Notes under the pieces: generated by a model
Database searches by the model: none
What the model saw: only the letters and a program-made list of their open reading frames with translations
Told to the model about the DNA's origin: nothing
Part shown: positions 1 through 64,000 of the stretch, piece after piece
Layout: every line of letters begins with the position of its first letter
Position numbering within the stretch: the stretch's first letter is position 1
Made by a program: the position numbers and the translations under genes
NCBI GenBank assembly: GCA_963969365.1
Contig: OZ017755.1
Coordinates: forward strand, 1,364,001 to 1,428,000
Direction of reading: 5' to 3'
From: Asterochloris sp. CNOR1
Lineage: Eukaryota > Chlorophyta > Trebouxiophyceae > Trebouxiales > Trebouxiaceae
Length of the DNA: 64,000 nt

Positions 1-607
1 CGGAGCCTATTGGCCAGCAGGAGGCGCAGGCTTGGCCGCAGTTGGGATCCAAGTGGGAGACAGCTGCAGCAGGCAGACTAGGCACCAGGCTGGGCAAACA
101 GATGAGTGCATTAGTGGGTGTGGGGCCACAGTGTGGCTGCCAGCAGCAGGGCCCTTCCGCACGATGCTTGCCTCATGGTGCCTCGCAGTGCTCGGTGGCT
201 AGGAATCAGAGCTGCATGGCTAGCAGACAGGCTGCTCATGACAATCTTGTCCTCAGAGAGAGCCAGGTTGTGCAGCAGGTGGCTTGGCGAATCTGCTGGC
301 CACTCAGAGGTCCCTGGTGGGTTATGACCTGGCAGCTGCTATGAAGTTGAATCCTGCGAGGGCTGCCCGGGAAGGCTTAGTGCCGGAGCCATTTCTTTAC
401 TGCACTAAACTGCCTGCATTCCTCATTTGCAGGTGGAAGTGCTGTGTGCTGTATCTCCAATGACAGCAGTGTCCTGAAGCAATTCAGGTCCAGTCACGAG
501 CATTGACTGCTCTCTGCAGGTCAAGATGCGGCATCCAAGATATGAAGCACTAGGCAGAAGCAAGGCCCAGGAATCAGCTTGAAGCATTTACATAAATTAT
601 GCTACAG
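1..607. other. 5' flank or intron of the phosphodiesterase gene
   Basis: No exon could be fixed here. The segment precedes the first recognised phosphodiesterase exon, which begins in phase 0 at 608, so upstream exons of that gene must exist either here or before the window. Two stretches (about 430-490 and 518-560) look like decayed copies of the start of the 608 exon rather than exons of their own. Nothing else is recognisable. Confidence 0.5.
430..560 (+). repeat. two decayed copies of the 608 exon start inside the upstream intron
   Basis: Around 430-490 the bases follow the pattern of the true exon start at 600-665: an acceptor-like TTGCAG, then a match running through CAATGACAGCAGTGTCCTGA against CAATGACTCTGGCGTCCTCG in the exon. 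A second, shorter match begins at CTGCAGGTCAAGATG near 518, against CTACAGGTGAAGATG. Both copies contain mismatches and stops, so they look like decayed tandem duplicates. Confidence 0.6.
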
Positions 608-3600
608 GTGAAGATGGTGTATGACATCTTCAATGACTCTGGCGTCCTCGAGCACTTCAAGATTGAGGACAGGAAACTGATGGCCTTCATCGCAGCGGTG
701 TGCAGCCACTACCACGAAAACCCCTACCACAACTTCTGCCACGTCGTCTACGTCCTGCACTGCGCCTACATGATAATGTCCTGCTCTGAGGCTGCCAGCT
801 GCCTCACCAGGACTGACCAGCTGGTGCTGCTCATCGCTGCGCTGTGCCACGACATCGACCATGATGGTGAGGGCCATTCTAGCAGGCTTGACACTAGAAG
901 ACAAGCCTGAGGGCTATGCGCAATGACAGCTGATGATGCTCTGTGTCGACTGCCCTGTGCCACAACATTTGGCCATGACAGTGGACCTTTTGAAGGCTAC
1001 ACCCAGCTCAGCTTGCGTCAGTGGTTCTTCAGCTCTGCTGTTTGCCTGACGAGGCAGTGGCAATGCAAGGGCTGCATGATGGAGACACAGGCTGCCTGCT
1101 TCTTGAGGGGGCATAGGTCTTACTTGACCTGGGCCTGAGGCATGCATCATGCTGCTCCATGTTGCTGCAGATGGAGCAGGCCAACAGCTTACTTCAGCAC
1201 CTAAGTCTGTGGCCTGCAGGGCCACCAGAAGCTCTGCATTTGGATGCAGAAGCACCTCCCCCTTGGTGCCTGCTTGGCCACAGTGCTTGCGCATGCTACC
1301 TGCCAGGCCACACTAGTGACATGCAGCAGCTGACTGGCCATGCGTAGTTTCATTCACCTCCCAAATTGTGCCCTGCCAAGCACAGCAAAGGGAGCCACAT
1401 CCAGACTCAGATGTCTCAAGGTGGTTTTCTGGCTTCGGAAATTGCTCCGTCAGGCCCAACCTAGCATGCCCCAGCATGTGCTGCTGCCTGCAGGCACCAT
1501 CAACGGCTGCCATGTCCAGACTCAGACCCTTGTGGTGCTTGTTTGGCTCCAGCGCTTGCTTGCATAAGCTCACAGTTGGCATGCCGAGAGCACATGGTCT
1601 CTCTGCAGGGCACACCAACAACTTCCACATCCAGACCCAGACCCCCCTGGCGCAGCGGTACAATGACATTAGTGTGATGGAGAACCACCACTGCGCCATC
1701 ACCTTTGCCATCCTGGCCAAGAGGGATTGCGCCATCTTGGAGCACCTGGAGAGGCCACGACGGCAGGTGATGTCACTCGAGCACTTTGACAGACCAGAGG
1801 AGCCACCTCTTCAAGTCTGGGGCAGGGTGTAAAGGCATGCTCTGCTCTGGAAAGGTGGCCTCTGGGCAGGGACTACACGGCCGTTGCCATGGAATGCACC
1901 TGGGGTGTGCTTCTCATTAGCTGCACTGTGCACCAGCCTAGGTCAGTGGGTGTTTTGCCCATAAGATGAGAGAGGCCTGTGCCTCTTCCAAGATTGTGAC
2001 CTCCATTCAGATCATCCTGCTATTGACTGCTGCAAGCTGTGCTCAGCAAGCAGCCTAAGCAGTGCTGACACCTTGGAACTCCGGTGGACTGAGCCTGCTG
2101 CATACCTCCTGCTGCAGGAGTTGAGAAAGTTGATTATCAGCGCCATCCTCGCGACGGACATGTCCTACCATTTCAGTTTGACCACGGAATTCAAAAACCA
2201 TGGTGAGCATGGAGGGTGTCCCATGATGCCCCTACGCTGCCTGCAGCTTTGCAGCTCATCATCGATCAGGCAGAGCAGCCACCAGGAGGAGCATGCTTGA
2301 AAGAAAAGAATATGCATCCTGTGGCTCACAGTTCTGCCTGAGACCTATGAGTGTGCAGGATCTGCATCTTATGGAGGCAGGAGCCATAAACTAGGGGTTG
2401 CTCCTGGCATGCCCAGGCTCTGATTGGTTGACTACTGTGCCACAGGGACACTAGATTAGCTTCTGCAGACCAATTGCCCTGTGAAGCGGGAGGTTGCAAT
2501 TAGCAAGAGGCTGGCAGTTGATGAATGAGCAGACCTCTCGCAAGTGCGACCCTCAGGGTTTTGTGTGCAGAACCCTGTGCACCTGCAGGCGCCTTCAGCA
2601 TTGAGAAGGAGGAGGACCGCCTGCTGCTAATCAAGGCCATCATCCATGCGGCCGACATCAGCAACCCTGTGCGCCCCTTCCACGTCAATTGTGTCCTGTC
2701 CAGCGGGGTCCACAGGGAGTTCAGGTGGATCTCACCTTCAGCTGTGGAACGTTCAGTGGTACACAAGTTGCAACAGGCACAGGCCAATTGGTAGCCAAAG
2801 CTGGGACATGTAGTAGGCCTGGGTTGCAGCTATGCTTCTATGTGGCAGACACCTTCACTGCAGCTGGAAGCAAACCGTGTGCACCCCGGCGATGCCAGTT
2901 GCGCCTGCCCTGCCGTGTTCTGACACCGTATGGTCGTGCGGTGAGGCGGGATAGGTGGGGCTGGGGGTGTTGGAGCCAGCCTGTTGGCAACGCGCAGTAC
3001 ACAGTGACCCTGTCCAGCAGATCCCACAGGGATCCAGGTATGCCGGGGTTGCAGCTGGGGCTCCACCACTTAGATAAAATGTTTGCGCGAGGGCAGGGCA
3101 GACTGCGCATGATCCACACATGGTGCTCTGCCCATTGAGAGGGTCCATGGCACAGTCCCACGGCCACACTGCTCCAGGCAAGCCCTGGCTTCCTGGCTTG
3201 GACTCGTTACTGCCAGACTCTGACATGAGCACCATCCTCTCTTGCTTTGTGCTCAGTGCGGCGCCATGCTGCTGTCAACGGCCAACCCAACCCTGGCACG
3301 GGACATGCAGGCCAAACCCCAGACGCTATGTTGCAAACTGCTTTCAAGTGTACAGCAGAGAGTGAGCAAGGTGTCTTGCAGAACTCTGCGGCAGACCTCT
3401 GAGTAGTTCAGAGCTGTGGCTGGACATAAAAGGTGTTTTGGGTTTTGCAATCGGCAAAAGCTACTGTTTGCAAGTCCACTTGGTTGCAGGGCCCATGTGT
3501 CAAGGCTGCAGCTGAGCCAGGTGCTTGTTTTGGAGACTGCAACTTGGCACCGGCACTGCTCCCTGCAGGGCCTTGGTGGCAGTGAGGCTGGCGCTGGGGC

Positions 3601-8165: not shown

Positions 8166-11100
8166 TCAAGAAACATTCAGGTTATTGAGTAATTGCGAGA
8201 TAGCCTTGACGCGTTCAAGGATGGTGACCTTGTCAGCCTCAGCCAGGCGCCTTCCAAATTTGGCAGTGAATTTGTCAGGGTGCCAGCGCATAAGCTCCAA
8301 GCGCAGGCGCTTCTTTCTTTCTGTCGCTTCGACAGCGCCATACAGAATGAAGGCAGACAGCCTCTCAGGGTCCTCTGAGAGATCATCTACCAGCCAGGGC
8401 ACACTGGCATAGCTGATGCAGGCACCCGCTGAAGCCGAGGCAAATGTATGCCACCGTGCCTCATACTTGCTGCGCCTGGCTCCCAGGTCACCCTGCAGAC
8501 AGGTAGGTGGCACAGCCATGCTCATGGCTCTGGAAAGCCACAAGCAGTGTGGCAAAGACACTGTGTGATGACCATACCCCTGGCCCCCCACTTGAGCTCG
8601 AAGCTGCCACCTCCAGAGCAGCACCTGTCAAGAGTGAGCCTGAACATTATCAATGCAGCAGTGCAGGTGACTTCCTGATGAGACAACCACAGATCCCTGC
8701 CTTGAGTACAGCGTCCCGCCAGGCCTGGTCCTTGGCGCGCTCGTCTCCCAGGATTCTGCGCGAGTTCTGAGCAGCCTCGAATGCAGCCTGCTCCTTTGCT
8801 TGCTGCGCCTCCCGCTGCAGGCGGAAGTGCTCTCGCCCAGCGGCCGCGCCGTCCATGCCCATCCGTCGTTTGCGCTCCATCTCCTGCACCCAGGTGCTAG
8901 TCAATTGAGACTGGTGCTGCAAATATGCTAAAATTAAACTCATAATTGCTTGTTCTGCTGCTGTCTCTGTCTGCAGCCACAGCAAGAAAGCTTTAGCGTG
9001 CCCAGCACCTGGATTGCTCAACACATTTGTGACGCCCTGCTTATCTGATCTACCGCCCGCAGTCACTTCCAGGGGCTGTCTTCAGTCGGTGACTAACACT
9101 GTTGTATCGAGCACCTGTTTTGTTGGCACTGTCTGTAGTGGCCGTCCAGACCCTGCAGCCAGGCAGGCAGACCCTTGAAGTGTGCACAGCTCAGCTCCTG
9201 CAGCTAGAAAACACCTCCTCTACGTGCACTGCTGCGCCGTCACATGTCTGCAGCCACATTGTGTCAGTGTCATGGCATGCAACTGACAGACAGCACAAAA
9301 CATGTATGCAGCCGCCACCTGTGATGCAGCGCCTTCTTTGGCCAGGCCGTCAGCTGCTTGAACATCAACGAGAATCGGGGGCACAATTGCATTAAAGTGC
9401 CGCACCACTGTGCGAGACACCTACTGTGCTCAGTCATGGTGACCTTGTGGCTTGAGCAGTGCAGAGGCAGGCGGCCAAGGATGGGTTGAGGAGGGCAAGG
9501 GGGGCCATATACACACATCAGCTGCTGGGTAGTGGGCAGTGCTCTGCACTGAGCAGCAGCCAGAACAAGCTGCAGCCAGCAGGTCTGGCAGCAGCAGCAG
9601 CAGCACTGTATATGCAACAGCAGCAGAGGTGAGGCCTTGCAGATATGACACGCTGGCCCAAAGGTAGGGCAACTTATGGTTTATTGTGGCCATCAGCAGA
9701 AGCTGAGGACCAGCTCAGCCAATTGTCTCACCCGCCAGATACGTGCAGCATAGGCGTCCTCGTCTTCTGTGGGGTCAGGGTGCCCGAAGAAGCCTCCTGA
9801 GCTGCACAGCACCAAAGGGTTACCGCAGCAGCCAGCATATGCACTTCAACTGACTTGCTGGCAAACAGCAGCCATTCAGCATGCAGATGGGAGGCTTGCC
9901 AGCATGCTGCCATAGACAGCAGAAGCCCCACACGAACCTGGCATACTGGTCACTCAGATCCTTATCAAAGCCGTCCTCCACCCCCATCTCTTCCCGTAGC
10001 CTGGTCTGCCACTCAGCTTCAGGATCTAGCTCATCATCTGCTGAAGTGGGCCCCATATCAGCCGCAGCAGCATCCCTGTAGGCTTGCAGATGTTGTGCGT
10101 CAAGGTTCACACTGTACAACCTCTTCTTTTAGGCAAGACCGGCCGGGATGGTGTGGCTTGCCTGCATGGCTTGCCCCGCTGCTGAGACCAGACATGTGTT
10201 CATGCGCTCTGACACCAGCGAAGACAGGGAGTGAACTCCTGGGTTGTGCTGCTGGAGGCGCAAGACAGGCCTCCTGCAGGCGGTGTCAGCAGCAAAGCAG
10301 CACACCTGACGTGTCCAGGGTCGTCTTCCTCAATGCATGGCCTCTATCCTTGAACACTGCTTTAGGCATCAAACTCAGCCGTGCCAGCAGCAGAGCAGTG
10401 CACCTGAAGGTATCAGGGTCATCCTCCTGCATAGCCTCCAGTGCCAAGTCTTGCACTGACCTCCCAGCAGAATTGGGGGTGGCAATGTTCGGCGGTCGTG
10501 GTTGCTGCAGCAGTGTCAAGGCCAGTCAATATAGGGGTGGCAGCTGCAGCAGGGGTGAAGGGACAGGATGCGTGGGCACACCATGGCATCTGGCCAACTG
10601 GCACAGCTGAACTTTAGCAGGTAGAAGTCATGAGACACAGGAGGAATAGCAGCACCCCGCCAGTGACCAAGACTTGCAGCGGGGCAGACAAGACAAGCTT
10701 CCTGCTGTGCAAAGGTTGCACACAGTCTGGAAACTGACTTGCAGGAGAATGGTGAGGATGTCAAGATGTCCATGCTGTGCTGCTAGGTGTGCAGGGGTGT
10801 TGCCCCTGAAGTCCTCAGCGCGGGCATCTGCACCACAACTGGAGGCAGGCAGCATCAGCACACAGGTGCTGGGGTCCCAATGCCGATGCAGTTCAGGAGA
10901 CAGAGCTATGTGACATTTACCTCAAAAGCAGCTCTGCTGCTTCTGTGTGGCCATGGCGGCAGGCCTGCAGGGGAGGTGAACCTTCAGGCAGAGCTGAGAG
11001 ACTTTCAAAGCTTTCGCTGATGCAAGTCTACCTGATGCAGTGCAGTGGACCCTTCTGCATCGAAGAGGTTGATGTCTGCACCCTCCAAATGCCTCAACAG

Positions 11101-12956: not shown

Positions 12957-15900
12957 ATGAGGAGGCCGCGGAAGCACCGCATGTTTGCTGCCCTCAGCAC
13001 AGCAGCTTTTGTGGTAGGCTGCCTGGCAGGTGAGCAGCGTATTGCAGCAGGGAGCATGGCAGCACAGTGTACCTTCTTGCAAGTTGGGGTGGGTCATGCT
13101 GCTCACTCAGATCTCGGAGGGAATCTCCACCCATATTGCCTGCTGTGGCCCTGGCCTGCTGCATAGTCACCATGCACATTGCTTGCAGAGACCCACATGT
13201 CCCAGTTGCTTGGAGTTTGGGCAGTTTCATAATGGTTATGATCCATAATGGTCATGATCCATTGCAGAATCTGAAGCTGCTGGCCCATGCCATGCCTGAG
13301 TGCATGCGAGCTTGCAGTGCACATGTCCTTCCATGTTGCTGCTTGTCTCGAGGAGCCCTCCACTTTCTGGGAGGGTGCCCCAGGCCGATCAACAACACCT
13401 TGAGTCACCTGAGGCAGCCATGACAGAGTGTGACACAGGCCTGGAATCTGTTGTCTTGCCACCTGGACACCTGGGGTGGCTTTTGTGCAGATGCTGCTCT
13501 GCCCTGCTGCAGGCGTGGTCTGGATCTCAAGTCTCCACGCAGCCACGCAGGCAGCCGTGTCTGCCAACCTGCGGGAGCTGGGGCTGCGCAGCGCAGTGGC
13601 TGCCCAGCAGGACCTGCGGGAGCTGGGGCTGCGCAGCGCAGTGGCTGCCCAGCAGGACCTGCGGGAGCTGGGGCTGCGCAGCGCAGTGGCTGCCCAGCAG
13701 GACTTGCGCGAGCAGCAGGCGACGCAGCAGCAGCAGGCGATGGCTCTGGGGTTCAATTACAGGCAGCCGCCGGTGCCGCGGCCGCAGAATCGCAAGCTGG
13801 ACATTGTCATGGCTTACACCAGCGGGCAGAGCACGCAGGAGACTGTGCGGGTGTGGCGGCAGGTGAGGGGCTGCCTGGTATTGCCAGCAACATGAACGTG
13901 CTGAGGGTCATATCAGCAGAGCAGACTTTGTGTGCGCCATGGCTGGTGAGGGAGCTGCAGGAAGCAGAGGGGCAGGCGCTCGCAGCCATTGCCACTGTCC
14001 GCAGCACTCTGGGAGGGTGGCAACAGGTGCCGGCACAGGGCTGGACACCCTGCCTGGCAGAGGCAGATGCAGGGGCAGAGTAATTTTCACTGTCTGCATG
14101 TGGTGTGCTATGGGGGGACAGATGTCAGCAGGTGCAGTGCAGACTGGAGTTGGGGGGGGCTCAGGCTGAGGACCCACTTCATGACAGGTCAAGCCATCAC
14201 TGTGCTGCCTGCGGCTGCCAGCAGGAACTGTTTGCCATGGCTCACATCATTGGGCAGAGCACCCACAAGACTGTGCCCAGGTGGTGGCCAGGTCCCCAGC
14301 ATGGATGACTCACAGCTAGCAGGCATCGTGAGAGCAGGCAGGGCAGCTGCAGCGTGCTGCTTGGCTTTGCAAGCCGTCAACATAAGCAGTTCTGGCAGCA
14401 CTTTCCCTGCCTGATCACTCAGGAAACGCATGTCATGCTGCAGGTGCTGCAGCTGCCCAGTATCCTTGTGTGCTCAGCCCCACACCTTGCTCTACTATGC
14501 TCAGCTGCGCCTTTCCATGTTGTAGGTGCTGCAGCTGCCCAACATCCGGGTGCTAAGCCCCTACATCTTCCTCTACTGCAAGGACCGTGACACCACTGCT
14601 GCCGAGCAATTTTTCCTGGCCTTGGGGCGCCCGGGGGAGGTCAGTGCCTGCTCGTAGTCCTACAGCCCTTTGCTGCTGTTCTAGGCCAAGCATACCCCCA
14701 TGTGCTGCCTGACACTGTGAGCACAAAGGGCCCTCTCCAGCTGGTCGGTGCCTGGCTCGGCTTGCCCACTACGGCAGGGGCTCATTGCTGCCAGCGTCAC
14801 AGATGCTGGTGCACATATGCCTCATGGCTTTGGTCGAGGAACGGCTTTCCTGTGCGCTCTGCAGCTCTTTATCCTTAAATCATGAGACATGAACGACGGG
14901 CTACCTTGCTTCATACAGGTTATAAAGCTCGAGAACATTGGGCGTGAACAGCACACCTACCTGATGCACCTCATCTTCCACTGGAGCGATTTGGCAAGGT
15001 GGGTGCTCTGCACCGCATGCAGGGGTCTCTTGCTGGCACTCCGGGGTTGCAAGACGGCAACGACATGGGCAGTCACCTGGACCGGCATGCAAGCAGCTGG
15101 CTGCGTGTGCCAGTAGTGTCTGCCCTTTATCAGCAGCCTCTAAGGAGCCATGACGCAGAAGTTGACGAATCTGGGCAGCAGCAATCAGCAGGCCCAGGCG
15201 GGGAAAAGGAGTCACGTCTCAAGGGGTGGCTGCAAGCTGAGCTGATAGAGGCGGTTGTTACTGACCGATACTGTTTGTGGACGCACATCCGCTGAAACCC
15301 TTTTAGCAATTGGCACCTTACTGCCCTGCCTGCAGGCACACCTTCTTCACGCAGGCGCTGCCCCTGCACAGGAAGGGGCTGACAATCATTCCAGGGCTGC
15401 GTGAGATCATCGTTCGCATACCCTGTTTCTCCTATTTGGATGAGCCTGCCAAGTGAGCTCTCCTCTTCACCCTGAGCTGAGTCATGTGGGGGCCACATGT
15501 GTGAGGCAAAACGCCTTGGGCCATGGCGCTGTCCCTGCCTGCTGGGTACAAGGGTTATCAATAAGGTGGGTTACCAATGAGCCAGGCAGGCTGCTATGTC
15601 CTGCCACTCCGGGCATCTGCACCGAAGAGCTCTGCCTGCCTGGTGTGAGGGCTTCTCTGCCTGGCTGGCAGCTGCAGCAGCACACAGCTGAGATGCTTTC
15701 AGCCCTCCTGTTGGACTGAGGTGTCAGTGCCAGTCCTGCACTGCCTGTGGCTGGAGTCGATGAGCATACTCAATTTCCCGCTGCTGCAGGCTGCTGCACC
15801 GCGCCAGCTTGCTGCATCCCAACACAGGCCTGCTGGCCATTGACCGTGTTGACCACAGCACCTGCACCAGCCGCCAGGTGGGGCTGACCCGGTCCCACTG

Positions 15901-25808: not shown

Positions 25809-28800
25809 TTAGCGCCTGCCAGCAGCTTGCTTGGCAGCCTGCTCGCGAAGCTGAGCCATCTTCTGCTCGCGGGTCAATGGGGTTGAGGATGGATAGTCAG
25901 AAGAGGCTGGAGCTGCTCCACTGCTGTCTGCTCCTTCCTGGCCACCAGAACCCAGCCGGGCTAGGCTGCTGCCGTCAGGCTCTGCAACGCGTTCCTCTTT
26001 ATTGGCAGATGCAGGCAAACACTGCTCAGGGAAGCCGCACCGCTCTAAGCTTGTGAAGGGCCCATTCACAGCTGGTGGCACATGCTGACGCGCAGAGGGG
26101 TAGGCTGAGCCACCAGGCATGGACCAACCTGCAGTTGAAGACCAGGTTACATATGCAGGCCACAGTGCAGTCCAGCCTATGGTCACCAAGACATGATCTG
26201 GGTGTCAAAGGAGGCTGCTGAATGGGCTTCATTCAACTGCATTCCTTCCTGGCCTGTACAACAACCTGGAATGGAATCTCTGCCACCCTGAGTGTCCCCT
26301 CACCCCACCTTCAAAGCTGCAGTGAGGGGGTCCTGTGCTCTCACATGAATAGTGTTGCATGTCTTGCCCTGGCGCCCTGCTGCGGCATTGAGGCCTAGGG
26401 CAGCCGACTTGGACAGTCAGCAGCACAGCTTCGATAAGTCACACACCTGCAGCACTGCCGGCTCTGGGTGCTGGCGGCGGCTGTGAGGCCTGCGGCGCCC
26501 CAAATACCGGCCACTCTCCCTGGTGCCCACTGCTGCTGCTGTTTGTGCTGCTGCCACCAGCGGACGTCCACGTCGGAGCCTTGTCGCCGCTCTGATAGGT
26601 TGCTGGTGGTTGCGGAATGTGATCTTGGGTTTCGCCGCCCTGGTGCTGCGCGCTGGTGCCAGCCTGGGGGTGAAGCAGTGGCTCCTGAGGGGGCAGGGAC
26701 GAGGGAGGCAGGTCCTGGGGCCGCTGGGGGCGCCCCCGCGGCTGCTGGGGCTCCTGCTGCGGCTGTCCGTGCCCCAAAAAATCGACGAGCTGGCGGGCAG
26801 GCTCCGTGGGGTGTGCTTCACGCAGGGAGGCCTGGATGGCAGCCTCCATGGCGGCCTCATTGAAGTGCCTAGGGGAGCAAAAGAAACAGAGGCTTTTGCG
26901 CAGGGACGAGATGTGGCCAACAAGAAGATGTCAGGTCATGGTGGTGTCGTCACCACTTTATTTGGCTGCAGTGTCAGGATGAAGCCAATGCATGGGCAGG
27001 CGCTTACAGTCTCAGACATCAAGCAAAGACGAGACACAACGCAGCTGTTATGGCAGCCATGCTGACTGGCATCCCACACTCTGCATGCAGCCAGCAATGA
27101 CCAGATGCACTCTCAGGGGCTGCAACAGCCTGCAGTGGCAAAAGTGCAGCCAGCAGTGACCAGAGGCGGCCTGACTGGAGTAGCTGTAGCAGCAGCATAT
27201 GCGGCGCGAGATACTCTGTGAGTGCGCTCAGCCCACATAGTGAGAAGCTCCGATGGCAGCCACATGAGGATGGCTGCAGGGGCACTTGGTCCCAGCTGCC
27301 AGACTCAGGCACAGGCAGCATAACGCTGCTCTGTGCCCAGCCACAGAGCTCCCACTCGCTATAGTATGCTATGGAACACATGCAAGCTGCTGCATCCTTC
27401 AAGCTACTTTGGGTCCCCAGTCTGGCACCATCAATGCAGACCTGCATCGTGCAGGACACTAAGCCTACCGTCATGTGCTGCATATCAGCCTGCACAAAGT
27501 CAGCTGCCTCAGGTCTATCAGCCGAGGCAGGCAGAGCAGCAGCCTTTGCATCGTGCAGCTCACTTACTCTGCCGTCATGTGCTGCATGTCGGCCGGAACG
27601 AAGTCCACCGCCTCCGGCCCCCAAAGCTCTGCAGGAGCTGCCCCCTGCCCACAGGGCACAGCCTTCATGTCCTGGGCAGCTGCATCAGCGGCTGCTACGT
27701 TCTGGGCTGGCTGGCGCTCCTGCTGCTGGGCGTCTCTGAGCGAGGATTCTAGCGCAGCTGCCAGCATGCGCTGGTCACGCTCCAGCTCTTCCTGAGTCAT
27801 GCCGTCCTGGAAAGAAGGGAAATGCCTGTGCGTGAGGAGGGTTGATGCTTGCAGTCCAACCTGGGGCTGCTGAAGTCTGCCTCAGCGTCTCACTGACGAC
27901 TCCATGTTGCCATTGTGAGCATGCACGCATGCTGCAACACCTTTGGCGGGCTGAGTCCTGGAGGCCAGTGCTTCAAGCTGACAACAGGGGCACGCTAAGA
28001 ATAAGGGTGCCCTGCCAAGTTGTTCACCAGGACTTACACTGGTCGCACCGCTTCTCACCTCATGCATGCGACTGCTCGCCCTGACACTGCAGCTGCTCGG
28101 GGCGGCCAACTGCCTGCACACACAGCAGCAAGGACCTGGATGCTCTGAATCAAAGTCCTGCATGAAAGCCAGCTTGTGAAAGCGCACAAACCGGCTGAAA
28201 CCCCAGCCCAGCCAAGAGGCAGCCATGATTTGCTTGACTGGCAGCAGCTGCACAACACCCCAGACCAATAGGCATGCAGCCATGCGTGCTGCACAGCACT
28301 GGGCGCGGATACCTACAAGCACCCGGGGGACATGTAGCAGGTGATGCACAGTATCTGGCGTCTCTTGCCACTTGCATCCTCTGTGGGCAGCATGAGCGTC
28401 ACAGGACCAGGCACTCACCTGCCCTGCTCCCCTCTGGCCCGCTGCGAGGTGTGGCTGCCGCTGTCTGAGGCCTCACCCTGCTGCAGGTTCCTGCGGGTCA
28501 GCAAACGAGACAGCATCAGCAAGATGGCCATTGATGTGTAGTGCAAAGCAGCCACCCTTGTAGGCCAACAATGGTGCACTGACAGCATTCAGAGGGCATT
28601 GGTCCCCGTCAAGGCCATGCATGGTCTGGCCAATCAAGCGCCAAACAAGTTACAATGTCTTGACCACACGCCAAGTGCTGTTGGTACACCAGCTAGCCGG
28701 GTGGGGCCTGGCTGCCATTTTGGCATGCTGACTGGATCCAAAGACACCGCAGCCCTCAACCTGTCCAGCCACATGCAATGCGCTGCACACAGTGCAACTA

Positions 28801-48600: not shown

Positions 48601-51600
48601 CCGCTTGTCAGCTGAGGGCAGCGCCTGGACCATGCAGAAAGTCTTGGCTCGCCCCACATCTGTGACCTGCATGCAGCAGCCTGGCATCTCAGAGATGAGC
48701 ATCCTTTCCCTGCATGCCCTTCATGCACGTAGAGTGCAGAAGGCTCCATGCCGCGCGTGGTCTCCTGCTGTGTAGCAGGGCGATGGCGGCCACCCACAGC
48801 CAGCACCTGACATCGCATATGCTTCTGGCTGACGGCAGACTGCCGCTGCCACTCAAGCCGCGAGAGGCACAGCAAAGATGTCCAATGAACACGTCAGCAG
48901 GACCAGACTTTGTCGACATCATATGTTTGTGACTGTCCTTACATGTTGCCAGATGTGGAGGGCACGCTCCAGGACGCCCAAGTCATGCTGCTCTGCAAGC
49001 GTGGTGCTGAGGAGGTGCAAGCGTCTCGCCTGAGTGACAATTGCATGGCGCCAGCCTTTCAGCACACGCCACAGCTGGCGGGCGGCCAGCTTCTGCAGCA
49101 TGCCACTCAGCAGGCTGGAGTGGGCCACGCTTGACAGGGCAAGGCTGCCTTGAACAGGCACGCAGCAGCAGCAGCCTGTCTGAACACCTGCCCCAAGCAT
49201 ATGCAGCCTGCTCAGGCACCCCTGTCTAAACAAAGCGGCACAGGAAAGGCACCACTGAGACTGGACACTGCTGCTGCCCAGGCACCATGCAGCACACCAG
49301 GGCCCTGTGCATGCCAATTGCACCTGCTGCAGCTGCCTGCCATGCTGCAGCGTCCAGGCAGTCCTCCGCCACGCCCTGACAACCCCTCGCAGCCATGCCT
49401 CTGGCACGGTCAGGCTGCAGAACTTCCCAATGATCTGCCAGTCCTGCTGACTGCTGCGCAGAGCAGCACCTTGATGACCAGCAGCAAGCGTCATCTCCAC
49501 AGCAGGTGTCTGGCCAGGTTGCCGGCCTCTCTCTTGCAAATCGCCTGCAATGTCTGCTGTGGCGTCAGCAGCACCAGCCCACACTGCCTGGGTATGATCA
49601 CCTGGCCTGGCATTCCTCTCAGGCAGACTGCCTGCTGTGGCACCAGCAGCGGCAGCCACCCGGACTGCCTGGTGGTGAGCAAGGCAGCAGTCGCTGCTGT
49701 CTGTGCGATGCTCCACAACTTCAGTCGCCTCAAGCGGGTCGGAGGAGGCCAGCGCTGCCAGGAGAGTCACTGACGTTGGGCTCATGCTGGCCTGCTGCCC
49801 TGCAGCAGCTGTGTGACGCTCTGGCCTGGCTGCTGCAGCGGACTGCGGCCTGCCCTGCATGGTGTGCTGCTGCTGCCGCTGCACACCTAGTGCTGCTGAA
49901 CGGCCAGAAGGCGACCTCTGCTGCAGCTGGATCTGTGGCAGTGGAGGCCATGTGGCGCCAGCCCCATTTCTCAAAGTTGATGCGCCAGAGGGTGGTGATG
50001 CATCCCCTACAGCCAGCATTAGTCATGAAGCTCAGGGCTATGCGGCTGCAGCTGCACTCTAAGCAACAGATGCAGCAGACGGGCCAGGTTGGTATCAGCG
50101 CGCAATGCGGGCATGCATAGGTGCCTGCTCAGTCACCACACCACTGTCCACCTTGTTGTGACTTCAAGAACAGTTGACGCGCCAATGCTGAGGAGGCTGT
50201 TCATGCACCCTGCCTCACCTGCGATGGGGGAGCAGGCACCACTTATTGACTGGTTTTCTCCAGCCCCCTTCTGCCTTGCTGCTCCAGCTGCCAGGTCTGC
50301 ATTCCCAGCACCATTTAGCCCGCCGCCTCTGGGCATGAGCTGGCTTGTGACATCAGAAGTTGCCTCACCACAGGCAGCCACCCTGGCCTTCTGGTCTTGC
50401 TTGGGGAGCTGGCTGCGGCTCTTGCTGCGTGCCATGGACGGCTGTGCAGGCTGCCCTGCAGCCGCCTGCTGAGCAGCAAGCCGACACGCAGCTGCCGCTG
50501 CTCTCTGCCTCAGATCCTGACGCCACTGCTCCCGGCTGTGGCTGCTGGCGCCCTGCCTGCTGCCACTGTCTGCTGCCTGCCTTGTGCTTGTAGCGGAGCA
50601 TGCATCTGACAGGCTGGTTGCAGAGTGTGCCCCATGGATGGCAGGAATGACGCGCAATTGCATGGGAGCACCCTCCTGCTGTAGCGCCTTCTGTGACAGC
50701 AGAGCAGGTCCATGGCTGCCCCGTTTTGCCACCTTCCCCGCACCAAGACCTGCACATCTATTGACTTGCTGTCGCTGCCCGCAAAGCAACTCCCAGCTCT
50801 TGCCAAGAATTTGGAGCACCCAGGCTGCGGTTGCTGCCTGGAGAGGAGTGTCCCTGCCTTGCCAACGCTTGGCGTGCACTGAGGCTGCCAGCAGGGCTGC
50901 AGAGAGATGCAGATTGCAGGCCCCGCACTGCACCTGTGCAATTTTTGCAATGTCTGGGAGACACCTGTGTCTGCTGTCAATCTGCAGCTCAGCTCACGGC
51001 AGTGGCGCCTTACCTGTCAGGAAGGCCTGGCTCGTCTGCCTGAGGCCATCCCACTCGGTGAGTACTGTTTGGTAGCTGCTGGTGGGCCGCGCATCTGCCT
51101 GCTGTGGACTGCTGTTTCGGCTGGGGCCCCGGCTCGTCCCAGCTGATGCACTGCGCAGCTGCCGGGGCCTGCCTGGCAACTGCTGCTTCCTGCCAGCCTG
51201 CAACAGGAAGCAGCCATGTTGGGTGGTGGCCGGGAAGAGTGCAGCCCTGCAAGAGCTCTTCTGATACAACACCCACGTAAATGCTGCACTGCTCAAATCA
51301 CGTATTGTGTAAAGACATCTGCAAGGACAGCTGCAGCTGTTACAGCAACAGGCAATGCTGTCTTCGTCTGAGCGTACCTAGGAACAGCGTCCTGGCTATG
51401 TGATCACCTGAGTGCCGGCCTCGCTGTGCTGCTCCCAGACGCTGTCCAGCTCTTGGTGCACTTGCCACTCAGAGCGATTCTGATTGCCTTCAAAGCTGGC
51501 AGGCAACTGCAGGGGCTGCGCTGCCTGTTGCCTGCGGAAAGCATTGTCCCCTCTGAGCTGTCTGTTCATCTGGCCAGCCTCCTTGTGGACAGCAGTGCTA

Positions 51601-54793: not shown

Positions 54794-57700
54794 ATGGGAG
54801 ATGCCTGGGGAGCTAAGGCGCAGCTGCAGGGCAGCGCTGCCGAGGTTCCAGGACTTGGAGAGCCCCCAACTGGACAGCAGCACACTCTGGGCCACCGTCC
54901 AGCCAGCTCGGTAAGCCCAGTGATGGTCAGGGTTTGACATGGGCACACTTATCACCACAACACGGCATGTGCTCGCTGTAGCCAGCAGCATTACACTGCT
55001 GCCCAAGCTGGATAGCCTGGCAAAACATGAAGCGCACTTTCAGGCAGGAACCCTGCCTTGCATGCAATCCACTCCATCCCCTGTGTCCCTTTGGCGCAGG
55101 CAGGCAAGGAGGTGGCAGGGCAGGGGTCAGAGAATGCAGTGGCATTCCCACACAGCCTGGGGGGAGGAGACTCTGAGCCAGACGAGGGCACCTGCGCCAT
55201 CTGCCTGGACAGAACTCCAGTCGAGGAGGTAGCACTGGTGAAGGGCTGTGAGCACTCCTACTGCGGTGAGCCACCACTCTATCCAGCCAGATGCTGCCCT
55301 GGAGCCAGGGTCTCCTCCGCCTGCCTCCCCACGGGGGAGTCACTGTGGTGCGCACGATCACACCAGTATCACCTGACCTCTGGTGGGTGCCAGCATGTCT
55401 GGTGGTTGGTGCCAATACTCCGGCTGTCTCCAGCTCCTGCAGGGGCCATTGTCTGGTTGCAAGGTGTGCTATGCCCCAGTGGACCCTGCCCAGCCATCAA
55501 CAGCCCCTGCCCTGCAGCCACTACTCTCCTGCTGTGGCTGCTCACAGCTGCTGCTCAGCGAGTGCACCTCCAGGTGGACGACCAGCTGCGACAGCCAGGA
55601 CACGCGATGGTGCCCCCCCAGCACCACCCTCACTGGCCTGCCCCTGCTGCCTGCAGCCAAGTGCATCCTGAAATGGGCGGTCCAGCGGGACAACTGCCGG
55701 TGCCCCCAGTGCAAGGCCCCCTTCCAGTACCTGTTCACCTACCGCAACCTGGACGGAACTCTGAATGACTTCCCCCAGGAGGAGAGCGTGGTGCTGCTGA
55801 AGCGGGCAGAGTGGTTCGTGGCCACACTCAAGGTCAGCCTGGGAGTAAACAGCACTGAGCCCTGCTGATCTGCCTGATTGGCTGTGGCAAGCGTGCTGAA
55901 GCAGGCTGAGTAATGTGTGGCCACACTCAGGGTCAGTCTCGAAGCACAAAGCACCAAGGTGGTCTGCTCCTCTGGCAGGGGTCCTGCTGAAGCAGGCAGC
56001 GTAGGTGTGGCCGCACAATGTCTGGTCAGAACATAAAGCGCTGAATGCTGCCAATGCACTGGACTGGCTGTGATGCTGCTGCCTGCTTGGCCACGGAAGG
56101 CCTCACAAGGCAGGACACCCAGTGTGGCTTGTTGCTGGCTAGGGAGCTTGCTCTGTGCAACGTCTCTCAGGGGTGATCAGGCTTCATTGTAGTCCTCTAC
56201 CTAGGAATGGTGCAGCACATGTTGAAGCACTTGGTGCCGCAGTCAGCTGAACTGCTGTGTCGCTGGCCTGGAGGGGGCGCTGCGCCATCAGAAGATTGGC
56301 AGTTTATCAAGATGACGCAGATCTCACAACAGAATGTTTCTGGCGCAGGCCACAGCACGAAAGGTGTCTGCGCATGCCTTGTGCAGGATAGCGAGAAAGG
56401 CAAGGAGGTGGAGACTTCAGAGCCCACACATGACTACGATCGGTACTATGCCGAATATGACGACGATGAAGAGGTGGGCATGCTGGCATGGCCTCTGGGT
56501 CTATGACATCACTCCAATGTGCCACGGCAGGGCATGGTGTGGTGTGGCTGTTTGCTGGGTCTTGGGCAGTTTGACGCTGGGCTGGTCACTCGCCACAATG
56601 TCTTGCTGCAGTTCTCGCCTTTGCATGCCTTTGCATGGTGCTGACCCCTGACTGTGGTTGTGCCATCTTGACCTGGACCAGAGGGGTGCGTTGCGACACT
56701 GATGATGCCAGCTCCACAGCGTCTCCCCTGGACCACAGCCGACATGGGCTGGGTCAGCACCCACTGTGGCGCATGAGGCGTACGGCTGGTCAGTGTGCCA
56801 GTGGCCGCCACCACATTCCAAGGCATGCTGGATAATGTGCAAGGCCTTCACACTGTGCCTGCAGGTGGAGGACTACTACTTCAGTGCGGCCGCTGGCAGG
56901 GCTCGCATTGTGGTGGGGAACAGGCGTTGGGGGGAGAGCGGATACGTGGCCTCGGGGCGTATGCAGGCGCGCCCAGTGGGACCCCCGGGCAAGAAGAAGG
57001 CAAGCTGCTGCCGCCTTTGCGCCCATGGCTGCATGTGCAGCAGGCCTGCAACCCTTCAAGCGCGTGCAAGCACGGCTGATGGCCCTGAACCGGTTGCTGC
57101 GCGCGCGGTACCTACGGTCGACAAAGTGTCAGGGCCGGGGCCAGGCCGGCTGCAGCCTGGCACAGTCCAGTCTTGGCAAACTAGCCCCTCCCCTGCAAAC
57201 CCTAGTGTGTGTTTGCGCCTTGTCACACTGCTTGAGGGTGCTGCAGATGCACGCAGCTCCACAAGGCTACATGCCTTAGCAATACACAGCAGCTGACGTC
57301 TGGGGTTTGAGCGTGCTGCCTGACATGTGTAAGCGCAGGAGAGCTGTGGCTGTGCTGTCAAGGTGCAGCGCTCTGCAATTTGTAGGCCCCTCTCATAGGT
57401 TGATGCCTGCTGCTGCTGGGGCCCCAGCCTCATGCTGCATGCTGTTGATGCATGCATTACATATGCTTGCTACAAACCGGCAGGTGTGTGCAGCCCTGCA
57501 GCCCCTTGCTCATTGCAAGTACAGCACAACACATTGAAACTGATCTAGAAATTCACAAGAGTGCAGGGTGGCATGGGCAGAAGCTCTGTGTGGCCATTTC
57601 CATTGGCCGCTACCATATGCTTTGCGTGGCCCATCTTTGATCTGCACTGGGCCCAGCTGCTGCAGGGTGGCAAGGACAAGAAGCCTGGGCCCAGTCCCTC

Positions 57701-59148
57701 AGCAGCAGCTGCAGGGAGCAGCAATGCAGCGCGCAGGGGCAAGAAGGGGAAGGGCAAGGCTCCAAACGCCGCACCCACCGGCGCCCAGGAATCCCCAGGC
57801 CCAGCGGGAGGGGCACAGCTGGCTGCTGCTTCTGCCGCACAGGGCAGCAGCAGTGTGCAGCCAGCTGCTGTGGCTGCACACACGGCAGCCAAGGGCAAGG
57901 CTCCGGCAGATGCTGTGCCTGGGGGCGACATCACCAGTGCTGAGGGGCCCTCACCTGCGCTGGCACAGGCCAGCAGGGGTGCCAGGGGCAAGGCGCCCGC
58001 ATCTCCAGGGCAAAGCACCAGCAGCAGCACAGCTGCTCCTGCCACCCCTGAGCAGGCACCTGCGAAGGAGGCTTCCAGCGGTCTTGCGTCTCAAGCAGCC
58101 AGCGGCGGGCTGAGTGCTGCCCTGGCAGCTGCCAGTGGCAGCGGTCCTGCCTCCCAAGCTCCCCAGCTCGCTAAGACGCCTGGCAGAGTATTCGGCTACA
58201 AGAGCAACAACGTAGAGCACGCCTGCAACTCTCCTGGTGAGAAGGCTGCCTGTATGATGCAGCCCTGTGCTGTCTATCAGAAGCCGCCTGAGGCAGGCCA
58301 AGCTTGATGACACCCGGCCTCCAGACGTGGCGTGCGGGATCAGCTCCCTTGACTATGCTGGCCAGGCCCTTGCTACCGCGTCTGTGTTGTTGGCAACAAC
58401 ACGCAGATACACTTCTGAGCGCCACGCTTGACTTCACAGGTGCTGGCAGCTCGAGCGCTGCCACCGCCATCCCAGCTACGGTGGTGGGGGCTGCCACATC
58501 ACTTGGAGGCAGTGCACCAGTGAACATCAGCCACCAAAACGCAGGTCCTGACCCTCCCCAGCTGTATGGGAGCAGCTGGGAACACGGCAGCTGGGGGCGC
58601 AATAAGGCCAAGCGCGGCCAGGTAAGGCTTGGCTGGTTCAGTGGACCTCCCATCTCTCCATCACTCAATCAGAGCAGCATGGCCTGGTGAGGCTGATTGA
58701 GGTGCAATTGCCCCGCCAACACTGCACAACAAATCAGAGCATGGCTAGGTGTCGGTTTGTCTGTGGCCCTGCCATCTCTTTGCTTGCCTGGAAATCTGCT
58801 GCAGTTTGGGGGTCACTCATTTTGTCTGGTAGCTGACTGCACTAGCATAAAGTCTTGCACAGCAGGCGTCTGTGTGCAGAAGGTAAATGCCTCCGTTCTG
58901 CGCAGCATTTGATTGCGGCTGCAATGTTGATGGGAGCTCTTGAGCAGCAGTCCCAGTGGCAGTGATGGTGCTGTCGCCCACAATTGCCCTGTGCAGGCGC
59001 TGACTCAAGTTATTGTCTGCAGGTCGATGGCAGCCCCTTGGGCAGCAGCCCTGGCAGCGACGGTGGGAAGGGCATAGCTGGGCGCCGTGCCCGCAGGGCA
59101 GCCAAGCGTGCTGCAGCTGATGCCAGGGGAGCCACATACGACTTTTGA
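54794..59148 (+). CDS. RING-finger E3 ubiquitin ligase of plant type
   Basis: Eight exons (54794-54910, 55100-55265, 55657-55832, 56387-56473, 56865-56999, 57666-58236, 58440-58621, 59023-59148) give 519 residues. A C3HC4 RING is assembled across the second intron: CAICLDRTPVEEVALVKGC, EHSYC, AKC, CPQC. It is followed by the conserved FTYRNLDGTLNDF and EESVVLLKRAEWF, which characterise a plant and algal RING family. Next are an acidic Tyr-rich stretch (DYDRYYAEYDDDEE) and the GNRRWGESGYVASGRMQARP motif, also family-typical. A 190-residue Ala/Ser/Gly/Pro-rich linker leads to a basic end (GRRARRAAKRAAADARG). The intron after 56999 begins GCAAG and is probably a GC-AG intron. Substrates unknown. 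Confidence 0.85.
55833..56045 (+). repeat. two decayed copies of the 3' edge of RING exon 55657-55832
   Basis: The exon edge and donor read GTGCTGCTGAAGCGGGCAGA, GTGGCCACACTCAAGGTCAG. Copy A near 55888-55940 reads CGTGCTGAAGCAGGCTGAGT, GTGGCCACACTCAGGGTCAG. Copy B near 55980-56030 reads GTCCTGCTGAAGCAGGCAGC, GTGGCCGCACAATGTCTGGT. Downstream intron bases (AAGCACAAAGCACC versus AACAGCACTGAGCC, AACATAAAGCGCTG) are also shared, so exon edge and intron start moved as one unit. Confidence 0.92.
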
Positions 59149-60693
59149 TTAGCCCGCCACTGTCCCTGCTGTTCCAAGATGTTTCACAAGTGAGCTTCAT
59201 GATGTTTTAAGTCAAGGAGAATGATGCCTATGCCACCCCCTTATGAGTGTGTGAGCACCTTCTGTTTGCAACCTTGGCTGAGAAGGCGTGCATTATCTCG
59301 TCTCATGTTTGCCCAAGCGTGCAGTTTGTACGACATGATCAAATCCACTGTAACATATCAAGAGTCTCACATGCTGCCCTGCAGCTTCAAACATGCATCA
59401 TTTGTTAAGCGACTCCATCTGGGTGAAAAACTGGAAGACCAAAAACAGAATAGCCAGAGCGAGGGCCCCTTGTATCAAGTCCTGCAGGCACATATGGGAG
59501 CACCAACCTTAGTGCACATGCAGGGTGGTCTCAGCAGCTGTCAAATGTGCAGAACTCAGCGCACACTGTTGCCCTGGTCTGGCTGCTGGAAGAAGCGAGT
59601 GGGGTCATCAGGATTCTGAGACAAGCCCTGCAGGCATTTCAAGCAGGACTGAGTTATCCCAAGAAGGCAGCAGACGGCTGAGAGCCTTGTAAAACCCCAA
59701 GTGGGCTGCTGCTACTGGCAATGCTGCGCATGGTCTTCGGTGAGCACGGCATGACAGGCACGACACGCAGCCCTGGCAGGGAGCACGTCTGCTGATCAGC
59801 TCAAGAGCAGGCAGGTGGCAACAATGTCTCCTCAGCATGCAGCTTCTGGCAGAGCAAACCTGTTGCTGTTCGCCCTCAACTCCAGCCTTGACCTTCTCGA
59901 CCAGGCCTCGGCCACCATCCTGGACGTCTTTGGCTCTCTGCAGTGCACACAGCAGCTGATCTTAGAGCGCATGCACTGGGGTGGGCCGGGGGAGGCAAGG
60001 CAGGCATCAGCAGGTGTCAGCAGCACAGTGAGGTGGGCCGGGGGAGGCAAGGCAGGCATCAGCAGGTGTCAGCAGCACAGTGAGGCGGGCCAGGTCCACT
60101 TAGGCAATGAGCGACATAGAAGTGCCCCAGAATGCCGCTCACAGCACAGTGAGGGGAGCCAAGCAACGGCATGAGGTAAAACAGGTTGCCCTGCCCAGGT
60201 CGCTTTTGACAAGAGGCAATGCTTCAGGGCAGCGTGTGCAACAGGCCCACTCCCAGCATGCTTTACATTGAGCTGACAACACGAGGGGAAGGCCTCAGCC
60301 CAAAGGTGGCCACACATGGCATCAGCACGTCCAGCATCAAGGTGCACTTACCTGTTGCACAGACCAGAGGCCACGTGTCAGATTGAAGAGCAGTTTCCCG
60401 GGCAGGGATGTGCGTGACAGGTCCCAGCGCTCCCTGCGACCAGGCACAGCCTCTCAACTGCTGCCCATGACGCATCTTCTGAACATGGCCAAAGAGGCAT
60501 ATCCAGACTGGTGCTGCAAGACATTGTTGCCAGTCAAGCCCCAATGTGAGCTATAGGTGCCCTGAGTAGCAGCCTCCCTGAGGCCTATCATGATGTACAC
60601 CTCCCTTGCATGTTCCCAGTGAAGTCTGAGCAGCCAGGCACTTGGGCAGCAGGCACTTGTGCCAAAGCACCCCGCCCGCCAGATGCAGGTGAC
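59149..60693. other. Unresolved region; possible small minus-strand gene
   Basis: No gene could be assembled. On the minus strand 59615-59556 is preceded by a good acceptor and encodes NPDDPTRFFQQPDQGNSVR then a stop, which looks like a real C-terminus. 59937 downwards, after CTGCAG, encodes RAKDVQDGGRGLVEK followed by a possible GT donor. They could belong to one short protein, but connecting exons and a start were not found. A 132-codon plus-strand frame (59221-59619) opposes them. Confidence 0.25.
59981..60084 (+). repeat. 52-bp tandem repeat, two full copies
   Basis: Unit beginning GTGGGCCGGGGGAGGCAAGG at 59981 and again at 60033, identical as read, with diverged partial units after 60085 and near 60140. 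Confidence 0.9.
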
Positions 60694-62471: not shown

Positions 62472-63733
62472 ATGAACAACAACAAAACAGACGAGGTGGG
62501 CTGCCCCCCTCAGACTGGCATCCAGCTGACATGCCTGCCGTTGGGTTCAGCGTATGCACTGGCTATCTGGTCCTTCAGGCTGCACTGCTGGCCGGCGGAA
62601 AGGGCGTTTTTGCCAAGACATCGTATATCACACACTCCGGCTCCAAAGAGTGAGGCTGGGAATGCTTGATGCCCAACCAGCGAATGCGCTACTCTGACAT
62701 GAGGACTTTAAAAGCAGGCTGCTGCCTTGCGCGCAGTCCTTTGCATGTCCCAGAGGCACATGTAAGGGCAGGCCAGCTCAACTGTGTCTCGCATCTGGCA
62801 GCGTCAGCAGCGGTTGCCTGCAGCAACCCTTAGGGAGCCTTCAGGATAATGCGTGATTGAGTTGCTTCCAAGCAGGTGCAGCAAAGGTTGCTCTGTTCCT
62901 GTAGGAAGCCAGAGGATTGCTCAAAGAAAAGCTCTCTACTTGAACAGTCATGTGCCTGCAGGAAGCCGGAGGAATACTCAAGGCGGCCCCCGGAGAGGGA
63001 CAGCTACAAGGGCAAACAGATGTACACACGCCCTGCAAAGCAGGGGCGCACGCCGGACACTTACTTTGACAAAAAGCACCTTTGGGTCTCAGAGGTGCGC
63101 CAGCGCTGCCCTTGCGATAGCACCCCAAGGTGCTGGCTAGCAATGTGCCTGGCATGTGGTTCAAGACGAAGCATCTGTACGTCTCAGAGGAGCGCCAGCT
63201 GTGCCCTTGCAGTTTACAAATTTCTGTCAGCATTGCGAATGGGCAGGCAGTGGTCTGCTGCTCAATTTTGTCCTCATCAGTGTGCCTCAGACTGCTGAGG
63301 CCATCAGCCATGATTGTGGCTCCACCGTGGAGGCAGTGTGATCTCTGCTCAGTCATGCACTCCACTTTGTGCTTCTAGCTGCTAGCCAACACTGCGTCTT
63401 GGCCGCTGACATCACATTGAATTCAGCCACTGAGAGCATCTTTGGTTTCGCCACTTATACTAAGCTCTGCATATCTTTGAACGAGCACAGTGGGAGCCAG
63501 GGTGAACTGCATGGCCATCTGGCCCTACTGCCTGACAGATGACCTGGAAGTGCTGTCAACGCTGCGGTCTCATATCTGGCTGCTGCTTGCAGGGGGCGCT
63601 GTACAGAGATAGGTTGAAGTACCAAGACACACAGCCAGTCAAAAAGAAGGGCTTCCTGACTAGCGACTTCAGCAAGAGGGACGAGTTCTCCATGACCTTC
63701 AGAACCGAGCAGTACAGGACACTGCTGCAGCAG
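62472..63733 (+). CDS. CFAP96 (C4orf47/UPF0602)-like cilia- and flagella-associated protein, continues past 63733
   Basis: Exons 62472-62495, 62579-62649, 62962-63094 and 63593-63733 join in phase: MNNNKTDE, then GGKGVFAKTSYITHSGSKE, PPERDSYKGKQMYTRPAKQG, TPDTYFDKKHLWVSE, LYRDRLKYQDTQPVKKKG, FLTSDFSKRDEFSMTFRTEQ. The order of a short YI-x-H motif, YKGKQ-x-YT-x-P-x-KQG, and a C-terminal KKGFLTSDFSKRDEF block fits my recollection of the CFAP96 family, a ciliary microtubule-associated protein. A further exon may begin at 63893 (GAG TCG...), but it soon meets a stop, so the true 3' end may lie beyond the window. The assignment was made without alignment. Confidence 0.6.
62895..62945 (+). repeat. 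decayed copy of the 5' edge of exon 62962-63094
   Basis: TTCCTGTAGGAAGCCAGAGG then ATTGCTCAAAGAAAAGC parallels the true edge TGCCTGCAGGAAGCCGGAGG, AATACTCAAGGCGGCCC about 55 bases later. The copied acceptor is TGTAG. Confidence 0.85.
63155..63215 (+). repeat. decayed copy of the 3' edge of exon 62962-63094
   Basis: True edge: AAGCACCTTTGGGTCTCAGA, GGTGCGCCAGCGCTGCCCTT. Intron copy: AAGCATCTGTACGTCTCAGA, GGAGCGCCAGCTGTGCCCTT. In the copy the donor GT has become GA, so it cannot act as a donor. Confidence 0.9.
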
Positions 63734-64000
63734 GTTAGTGTGCCATGTTCCCTGTGCTTCAGTGCAGCTCTGTGTATATCTGTGCTGCCGCGGCAGAGCA
63801 GGGTTGATGAGGTGTGAGGTTAGGTGCCCTCTCAGGACACAGCAACTGATAGCACTTGATATGCATGAGAAGTCTGCATAGAAGACCTGCAGGAGTCGCT
63901 GACCGCATACCTGTGTGGCGTTCTCACCCTGCTGCAGCTGTAAGAGTTGGACTGCTTTCAGATGATGGCAACTCTTGCTGCAACCTGAGCAGGCTGCCGC
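63734..64000 (+). other. intron and possible next exon of the CFAP96-like gene
   Basis: A donor (GTTAGT) follows 63733. A candidate acceptor CTGCAG ends at 63892, but the frame beyond it closes after about 17 codons. Nothing else recognised up to the window edge. Confidence 0.35.

Follow-up and report, generated by a model that had tools for sequence, protein, structure and literature searches.

Small tandem duplications arise when a DNA break is repaired with fill-in, and they have been reported in plants and animals (PMC8355091). In a potato gene, one tandem duplication across an intron-exon boundary produced a new intron (PMC4974935). Among green algae, Chlamydomonas and Volvox have their densest tandem repeats in introns, with a bias toward the intron ends (PMC3887541), while six species of the Chlamydomonas group have conspicuously long introns that lack the usual 60-110 bp length peak, a pattern whose driver was considered likely ancient and left unexplained (PMC8226300); these statements follow the accessible passages of each paper. 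Here we analyse a 64,000-nucleotide stretch of the green alga Asterochloris sp. CNOR1 (contig OZ017755.1, positions 1,364,001 to 1,428,000 of the forward strand; hereafter the window) together with further DNA of the same genome, in which many introns carry decayed copies of the edges of the exons beside them.

In 2016 Schiml et al. reportedly described small tandem duplications as a product of fill-in during break repair, a patch-mediated model of small tandem duplication is said to exist for rice, and Gao and Lynch reportedly treated internal gene duplication, introns included, in 2009. The kind of mutation is known already; what seems new is how densely it occurs at exon edges, at what spacing and with what age structure. 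A literature search by title, with most subscription papers outside its reach, did not find decayed exon-edge copies described as a genome-wide feature of introns. Like the duplications ascribed to break repair, the repeats studied here are direct and, in the longer arrays, plainly adjacent copies of short segments, but the accessible passages on break repair concern fresh events, experimental or seen between genomes, whereas here the record is dense and decayed and has a preferred spacing of 80-119 bp (PMC8355091). As in the potato case, the duplicated stretch crosses the boundary and the copied splice signals matter, and about 10 pairs have that same geometry; there, however, a new intron arose, while the bulk of our pairs looks like the lengthening of existing introns (PMC4974935). 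The introns of Chlamydomonas and Volvox are likewise rich in tandem repeats, more so at their ends, but those repeats are recognisable motifs (GT/AC commonest in introns) for which a splicing role was proposed, and the accessible passages do not mention decayed exon-edge copies (PMC3887541).

Exon edges and their adjoining introns

Our analysis covered 304 kb of a 56.4 Mb assembly in 21 contigs (GCA_963969365.1): 264 kb contiguous on the contig that holds the window, here C10 (the window plus 200 kb of flank), and 20 kb each of two other contigs, C1 and C4. The gene models are our own ab initio predictions from a self-trained simple gene finder (a constrained hidden Markov model), so all exons and introns below are predicted. 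It returned 72 genes with 608 introns (median length 270 for introns and 130 for exons), with a donor consensus of CAG/GTGAG and an acceptor consensus of CTGCAG/G (the slash marks the junction). Seventeen predicted genes overlap the window, and seven of eight proteins tested from them match a Pfam family at E <= 0.001. Five lie above the curated cut-off (PDEase, HAD hydrolase, Gar1/Naf1, abhydrolase, and UBD plus RING) and two below it (CFAP96 and DUF3431); the remaining one of the eight has no Pfam match. A search of the genome recovered 31 pieces of chlorophyll a/b-binding proteins, which marks the organism as a photosynthetic eukaryote.

The first-pass annotation of the window had named, as the result that would speak against it, a rate of exon-edge matches in adjacent introns no higher than in random introns of similar composition. 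We aligned 70-base exon-edge queries to introns of at least 140 bp (449 of the 608) and counted matches scoring at least 90; both this test and the splice-base counts given further on use lenient gap costs, and the test has an empirical null. Donor edges matched their own intron in 50 of 449 cases and acceptor edges in 53 of 449. Introns from other genes, matched for length, gave 7 of 4490 and 17 of 4490, distant introns within the same gene gave 1 of 421 and 0 of 421, and reverse complements gave 0 of 449 on either side. The pooled own-intron rate is 11.5% (8.6-14.7% by gene bootstrap) against a null of 0.27%, and among introns with both splice sites above the median score the matches number 22 of 121 (donor) and 18 of 121 (acceptor). 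By place, donor and acceptor matches are 13 of 90 and 6 of 90 in the window, 34 of 300 and 42 of 300 in the C10 flanks, and 2 of 30 and 5 of 30 on C4. The excess of exon-edge copies in adjoining introns is confirmed.

The smaller particulars of the annotation also held. Pairs involving a junction occur in 9 of the 17 genes overlapping the window, where at least eight had been proposed, and across the whole sample they overlap 136 of 608 introns in 39 of 72 genes. Copies of 30-80 bases had been described, and the median arm of junction-to-intron pairs is 52 bases; one to three copies per site had been described, and such pairs occur in 103 introns, once in 69, twice in 26, three times in seven and four times in one. 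The alignments cross the junction with the splice bases included, again as proposed. Introns with junction-type pairs are longer than the others (median 388.5 versus 241.5), which partly reflects opportunity.

The same signal appears when repeats are collected without reference to genes. Ungapped pairs (score >=17, spacing 12-500) number 59 in the window; three block shuffles that preserve dinucleotides yield 4, 1 and 1, and a 50 kb comparison stretch of E. coli has 3 direct pairs and no inverted one. Over the 304 kb, the same threshold yields 263 direct versus 15 inverted pairs at spacings of 12-499, while beyond 500 bp the two orientations are alike in number, so the repeats have the direct orientation and short distance of small tandem duplications. 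With gaps allowed (score >=90), self-alignment of the 264 kb of C10 gives 215 pairs, versus 4 in one shuffle. The acceptor consensus CTGCAG and the over-representation of CA, TG and GC might suggest that chance or composition, including low complexity, produces these pairs. Shuffles, rotated annotation, other-gene introns and reverse complements nevertheless fail to reproduce the excess, although such nulls carry the CTGCAG bias. The annotation had named that bias as the alternative to discount, and we regard an origin in chance or composition as hardly credible.

Transposons or introners as the source were dropped, in agreement with the annotation. Three arrays of copies (the donor array of the UBD/RING gene, 29142-29640 and the 35288-35847 array) were searched against the whole genome, and 3 of 3 returned one match, at their own place, in a search that skips very common words. 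Introner elements, a topic of PMC9860276, are also repeated sequence that shapes introns, but they insert in many genes, whereas here introns of other genes match only at the null level. Set beside a minisatellite with its several similar units, most introns hold one pair and a few hold up to four, and the copies are mostly 65-85% alike.

How the pairs are distributed over gene structure was counted twice, in an earlier set of 199 ungapped pairs and, as a later repeat of the class counts, in the 215 gapped pairs of C10. The whole sample holds 239 gapped pairs, of which 97 join a junction-spanning arm to an intronic copy, 47 are exon-intron, 40 intron-intron, 24 exon-exon, 19 junction-junction, 7 exon-junction and 5 other. 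On C10 the junction-to-intron class numbers 85, compared with 37.3 +- 5.7 when the annotation is rotated, and 0 of 1000 rotations reach 85; in the ungapped set the class was 66 versus 26.5 expected. Intron-intron pairs fall below the rotation expectation (38 versus 70.7), and plain exon-intron pairs lie near it (42 versus 37.6).

The copies also have a preferred distance, common to both sides of the exon. Exon-intron 7-mer matches at a lag of 80-119 number 521 versus 317 expected at donors (1.64x) and 507 versus 327 at acceptors (1.55x), while the reverse-complement control gives 637 versus 649 (0.98x). After masking of all detected arms, the 80-119 bp peak persists at 1.38 for donors and 1.30 for acceptors with the control at 0.98, which suggests that further copies lie below detection. 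At lags of 30-79 the ratio is 1.00 for acceptors and 1.26 for donors; this hints that a copied AG too near the real AG is not tolerated, though overlapping words weaken the test. The intron-intron lag curve falls from short lags without a peak at 80-120, a shape that fits copies surviving only where they are anchored by an exon but is not positive evidence for it. Several arrays align beyond their own period, that is, head to tail; this structure is plain in the longer arrays only, and elsewhere we take it to be probable from the sequence.

Survival, age and decay of the copies

We favour, with a probability of roughly 80%, a model in which short tandem duplications straddled exon-intron junctions, mostly during an older period, and left an intronic outer copy that decays neutrally. 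The duplicated unit would straddle the splice junction, the splice site adjoining the intact exon would stay in use and the protein would be unchanged. The outer copy, consisting of exon edge and splice site, would become intronic, add one unit of length and decay. Selection would hold the exon half of each pair, so that pairs crossing a junction would remain visible after purely intronic pairs had faded, and the duplications would appear to be concentrated at junctions. Most of them would belong to the older period, the rate per substitution having since fallen. As a speculative guess, the duplications came from the repair of breaks whose staggered ends were filled in. Such repair would leave breakpoints with little or no microhomology, and in these copies decay has blurred the breakpoints beyond single-base precision.

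A mechanistic bias toward junctions need not be invoked. The excess of 85 junction-to-intron pairs and the single spacing peak on both sides could reflect a duplication mechanism aimed at splice junctions, for instance through transcription- or splicing-linked breaks. However, in simulations in which duplications were placed at random, with exon constraint and indel rate set in three different ways, junctions are already favoured: at an age of 0.2-0.3, 51 of 146 junction copies but 3 of 73 intronic copies were detected, and at 0.3-0.4, 23 of 182 and 0 of 80. The observed ratio at spacings of at least 60 is 163 junction to 28 intron pairs, and no targeted mechanism is needed for it because random placement and the longer detectability of junction copies suffice in simulation. 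Moreover, the junction excess on C10 is limited to diverged pairs (82 versus 35.4 below an identity of 0.88), and the most similar pairs do not have it (3 versus 2.4 at 0.88 and above, in a class of n=22). We therefore consider an aimed mechanism unlikely.

The copies are also older than a constant rate would leave them. Junction copies are mostly 65-85% identical to their exons. Among junction pairs with at least 60 aligned bases, 3 of 61 reach an identity of 0.80; a constant-rate simulation gave 264 of 491, and two more simulations gave 219 of 265 and 157 of 189. When age distributions are fitted under the three settings, the youngest bin (0-0.1) is 0 and the bulk of the fit falls at ages above 0.2 substitutions per site, with about 200 to 1,100 junction-crossing events at age 0.2-0.4 for the 608 introns and the older bins unconstrained. 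Most of the duplication looks old because young junction copies are scarce. This scarcity and the preferred spacing are both additions to what the annotation had described.

Could the same duplication process instead be steady and ongoing, with no older period of high rate? Young tandem duplications do exist, as the 304 kb hold four full-length units of at least 40 bp at an identity of at least 0.88 (45, 52, 72 and 75 bp), along with shorter young units. None of the four, however, runs more than 1 base past the end of an exon into the intron. A steady process should also leave at least as many young copies as old ones, and yet 16 of 170 junction pairs reach an identity of 0.85, where simulation gave 202 of 572. 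Of the 16 observed pairs, 15 align over at most 36 bases. A steady process thus seems quite improbable to us.

A shortage of similar copies would also be accounted for if copies were made or diverged abnormally fast, through error-prone repair or repeat-triggered mutation, in which case the gap at high identity would not measure age. The substitutions between exon and copy (350 transitions, 351 transversions; 281 GC to AT, 234 AT to GC) lack the C-to-T signature of repeat-triggered mutation. Repeat-induced mutation was dropped on this balanced spectrum; balanced error-prone synthesis is still compatible with it, and fast divergence as a whole we judge to be an unlikely account. The decay looks like ordinary neutral decay rather than selection or repeat-triggered mutation. 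From the first to the third codon position, the mismatch between exon and copy is 17.4, 18.7 and 25.5%, the pattern of an exon under constraint paired with a copy that is free of it. C-to-T or G-to-A changes affect 65 of 258 CpG sites (25%) versus 132 of 1840 other C or G (7%), about 3.5 times as many, and the observed/expected ratio of CpG is 0.47 in exons and 0.31 in introns; CpG depletion and CpG decay together probably reflect CpG methylation.

The annotation had also foreseen that such copies would create pseudo-splice sites, and putative sites of this kind are present in the sequence: GT is kept in 28 of 43 aligned donor copies and AG in 34 of 44 acceptor copies. Retention of GT or AG in 62 of 87 copies might mean that selection keeps them as decoy or poison splice sites or as alternative exons. 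It is near the expectation from a flanking identity of about 0.8 per base, however, so the splice bases decay like their neighbours; the spacings fall on all residues modulo 3 (34/31/27), and the codon-position pattern is that of a neutral copy. A selected function is thus very improbable. For the same reasons the set does not have the constrained frame and splice sites of tandem exon duplication, with individual exceptions possible.

Several observations weigh against the model of old junction-straddling duplications. Most pairs align over only part of the unit (median ratio of aligned length to spacing 0.42 for junction-to-intron pairs), and the flanks of ungapped arms are near background, with 7.17 matches of 16 inside the expected unit, 7.08 outside it and 7.04 in the null. 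Below the threshold, donor-side scores show a shift (p 0.015) and acceptor-side scores do not (p 0.55). The class at an identity of at least 0.88, with its n=22, gives low power for the survivorship contrast, and the age fits reproduce the observed table of length and identity only roughly. The gene models are ab initio and self-trained, and the density, measured in one eukaryote genome, may not be unusual. Finally, C1 is almost without signal (donor 1 of 29, acceptor 0 of 29). The genome-wide extent that the annotation proposed therefore holds on C10 and C4, nearly fails on C1 and rests on three contigs. The origin that it proposed, in which stretches across junctions undergo local tandem duplication and the copies then decay, is supported and is the account that best survives these tests, but two of its connotations need revision: the specificity for junctions need not be mechanistic, given the survivorship seen in simulation, and the process appears mostly old rather than ongoing, given the scarcity of young junction copies.

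Copies and arrays in the window

In four arrays of the window, one exon edge is accompanied by two to four decayed copies. In the UBD/RING gene (55795..56072, forward strand), the donor edge of exon 55657-55832 is followed by two decayed tandem copies, at about 55894 and at 55980-56072, and the three rows can be aligned; the gapped pairs are 55795-55926 with 55894-56016 (76% identity) and 55790-55886 with 55980-56072 (71%). At 29111..29640 on the reverse strand, the acceptor edge of exon 29017-29151 has decayed copies near 29234, 29330, 29540 and 29589 in intron 29152-29833, again alignable, with pairs at 62-75% identity. The acceptor edge of exon 1609-1766 (1383..1653, forward) is preceded by two copies, near 1383 and 1498, with a period of 115; the aligned length of 154 exceeds this period, at 68% identity and a score of 190. 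In the gene model without a Pfam match (35288..35847, forward), pairs and an alignment place copies of the donor edge of exon 35183-35375 near 35488, 35667 and 35813.

At other exons too a donor edge has a copy. On the reverse strand, exon 27568-27806 of the abhydrolase gene model has an intronic copy at 27443-27513 with a spacing of 104 (27443..27617; 79% identity over 71 bases, score 205), exon 41855-42117 has an intronic copy at 41685-41779 with a spacing of about 129 (41685..41903; 85% over 85 bases, score 185), and exon 32119-32301 has one at 31772-31867 (31772..32193; 70% over 96 bases, score 190). Also on that strand are the intronic copies of the short exon 10404-10432, from a weak gene model (copy 10280-10344, feature 10280..10438; 79% over 61 bases), of the donor-side end of exon 49602-49832 (copy 49551-49600, feature 49551..49681; 78% over 50 bases) and of exon 22318-22496 in the Gar1/Naf1 gene (copy 22155-22192, feature 22155..22325; 74% over 38 bases, its score of 90 being the threshold itself). 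On the forward strand, the donor edge of exon 608-866 in the PDEase gene recurs at 927-983 (818..983; 83% over 52 bases).

One exon has copies on both sides. Exon 62962-63094, in the gene with the CFAP96 match, has a donor-edge copy at 63169-63210 with a spacing of 95 (63074..63210, forward; 83% identity), whose arm consists of 21 exon and 21 intron bases, and an acceptor-edge copy at 62894-62924 with a spacing of 57 (62894..62981, forward; 84% over 31 bases). This gene model (62472-65804) extends past the window end, and its below-cut-off match to CFAP96, a ciliary protein, hints that flagellar genes are kept.

Other copies involve exon ends or parts. The start of exon 59023-59148 recurs in the upstream intron at 58926-58970 (58926..59065, forward; 83% over 42 bases, likewise at the threshold score of 90), part of exon 31087-31285 recurs at 31509-31539 in intron 31286-32118 (31240..31539, reverse; 90% over 31 bases), and the end of exon 13513-13862 recurs at 14232-14288, beyond the next predicted exon (13804..14288, forward; 77% over 57 bases). 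By contrast, a young intronic tandem duplication at 59974..60094 (reverse strand), with a unit of 52 and 94% identity, lies away from exon edges.

Coding sequence holds tandem repeats of its own. A nearly perfect 45-base in-frame repeat of about 3.3 copies occurs in a predicted exon at 13567-13728 and encodes a 15-residue repeat around LRELGLRSAVAAQQD. A coding array with a period of about 54, aligned over 260 bases, lies in the right flank on C10, 24.5-24.9 kb past the window end (88547-88860 in window coordinates).

A minority of pairs may record something else, namely intron gain by tandem duplication, with the two copies of a segment flanking the intron; this would be compatible with the model of junction-straddling duplications. 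The Rogers model and its variants place copies at the donor and acceptor of one intron, which is not the geometry of the main class here. Among the 19 junction-junction pairs of the sample, which include 3563-3705, 14434-14577, 20907-21047 and 39152-39563 in the window, 10 placements do have arms at both ends of one predicted intron, and on C10 the class is mildly above rotation (17 versus 11.1, reached by 56 of 1000). The enrichment is borderline, however (5 versus 3.7 in the ungapped set), and an ab initio model may wrongly set an intron between two copies. Intron gain thus seems rather doubtful, even for this minority.

Intron length in green algae

These observations suggest that one way in which introns grew longer was through old tandem duplications across splice junctions. 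The predicted introns of the 304 kb have a small length peak at 60-100 bp followed by a broad spread to about 450 bp, as if many had grown from a short base length. That small peak sets them apart from the introns described in the accessible passages on the Chlamydomonas group, so the two patterns are not identical (PMC8226300).

A bolder extension, which we offer as a tentative possibility, is that serial tandem duplication of an intron's own exon edges and flanks, adding about 80-120 bp per step, did most to build the introns found in this lineage, during an ancient period that is now nearly closed. The visible copies would then be the tail of a hidden population. If true, this would supply the missing mechanism for long green-algal introns, with new introns as a possible outcome of a few such duplications.

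A step-like record of duplication at exon edges offers a testable mechanism for intron length that has so far lacked an explanation. The same record could explain why the tandem repeats of green algae, as described in the accessible passages on Chlamydomonas and Volvox, lean toward intron ends without a role in splicing (PMC3887541). It would also provide natural duplicated splice sites in number, as material for studying how the spliceosome chooses the right copy.

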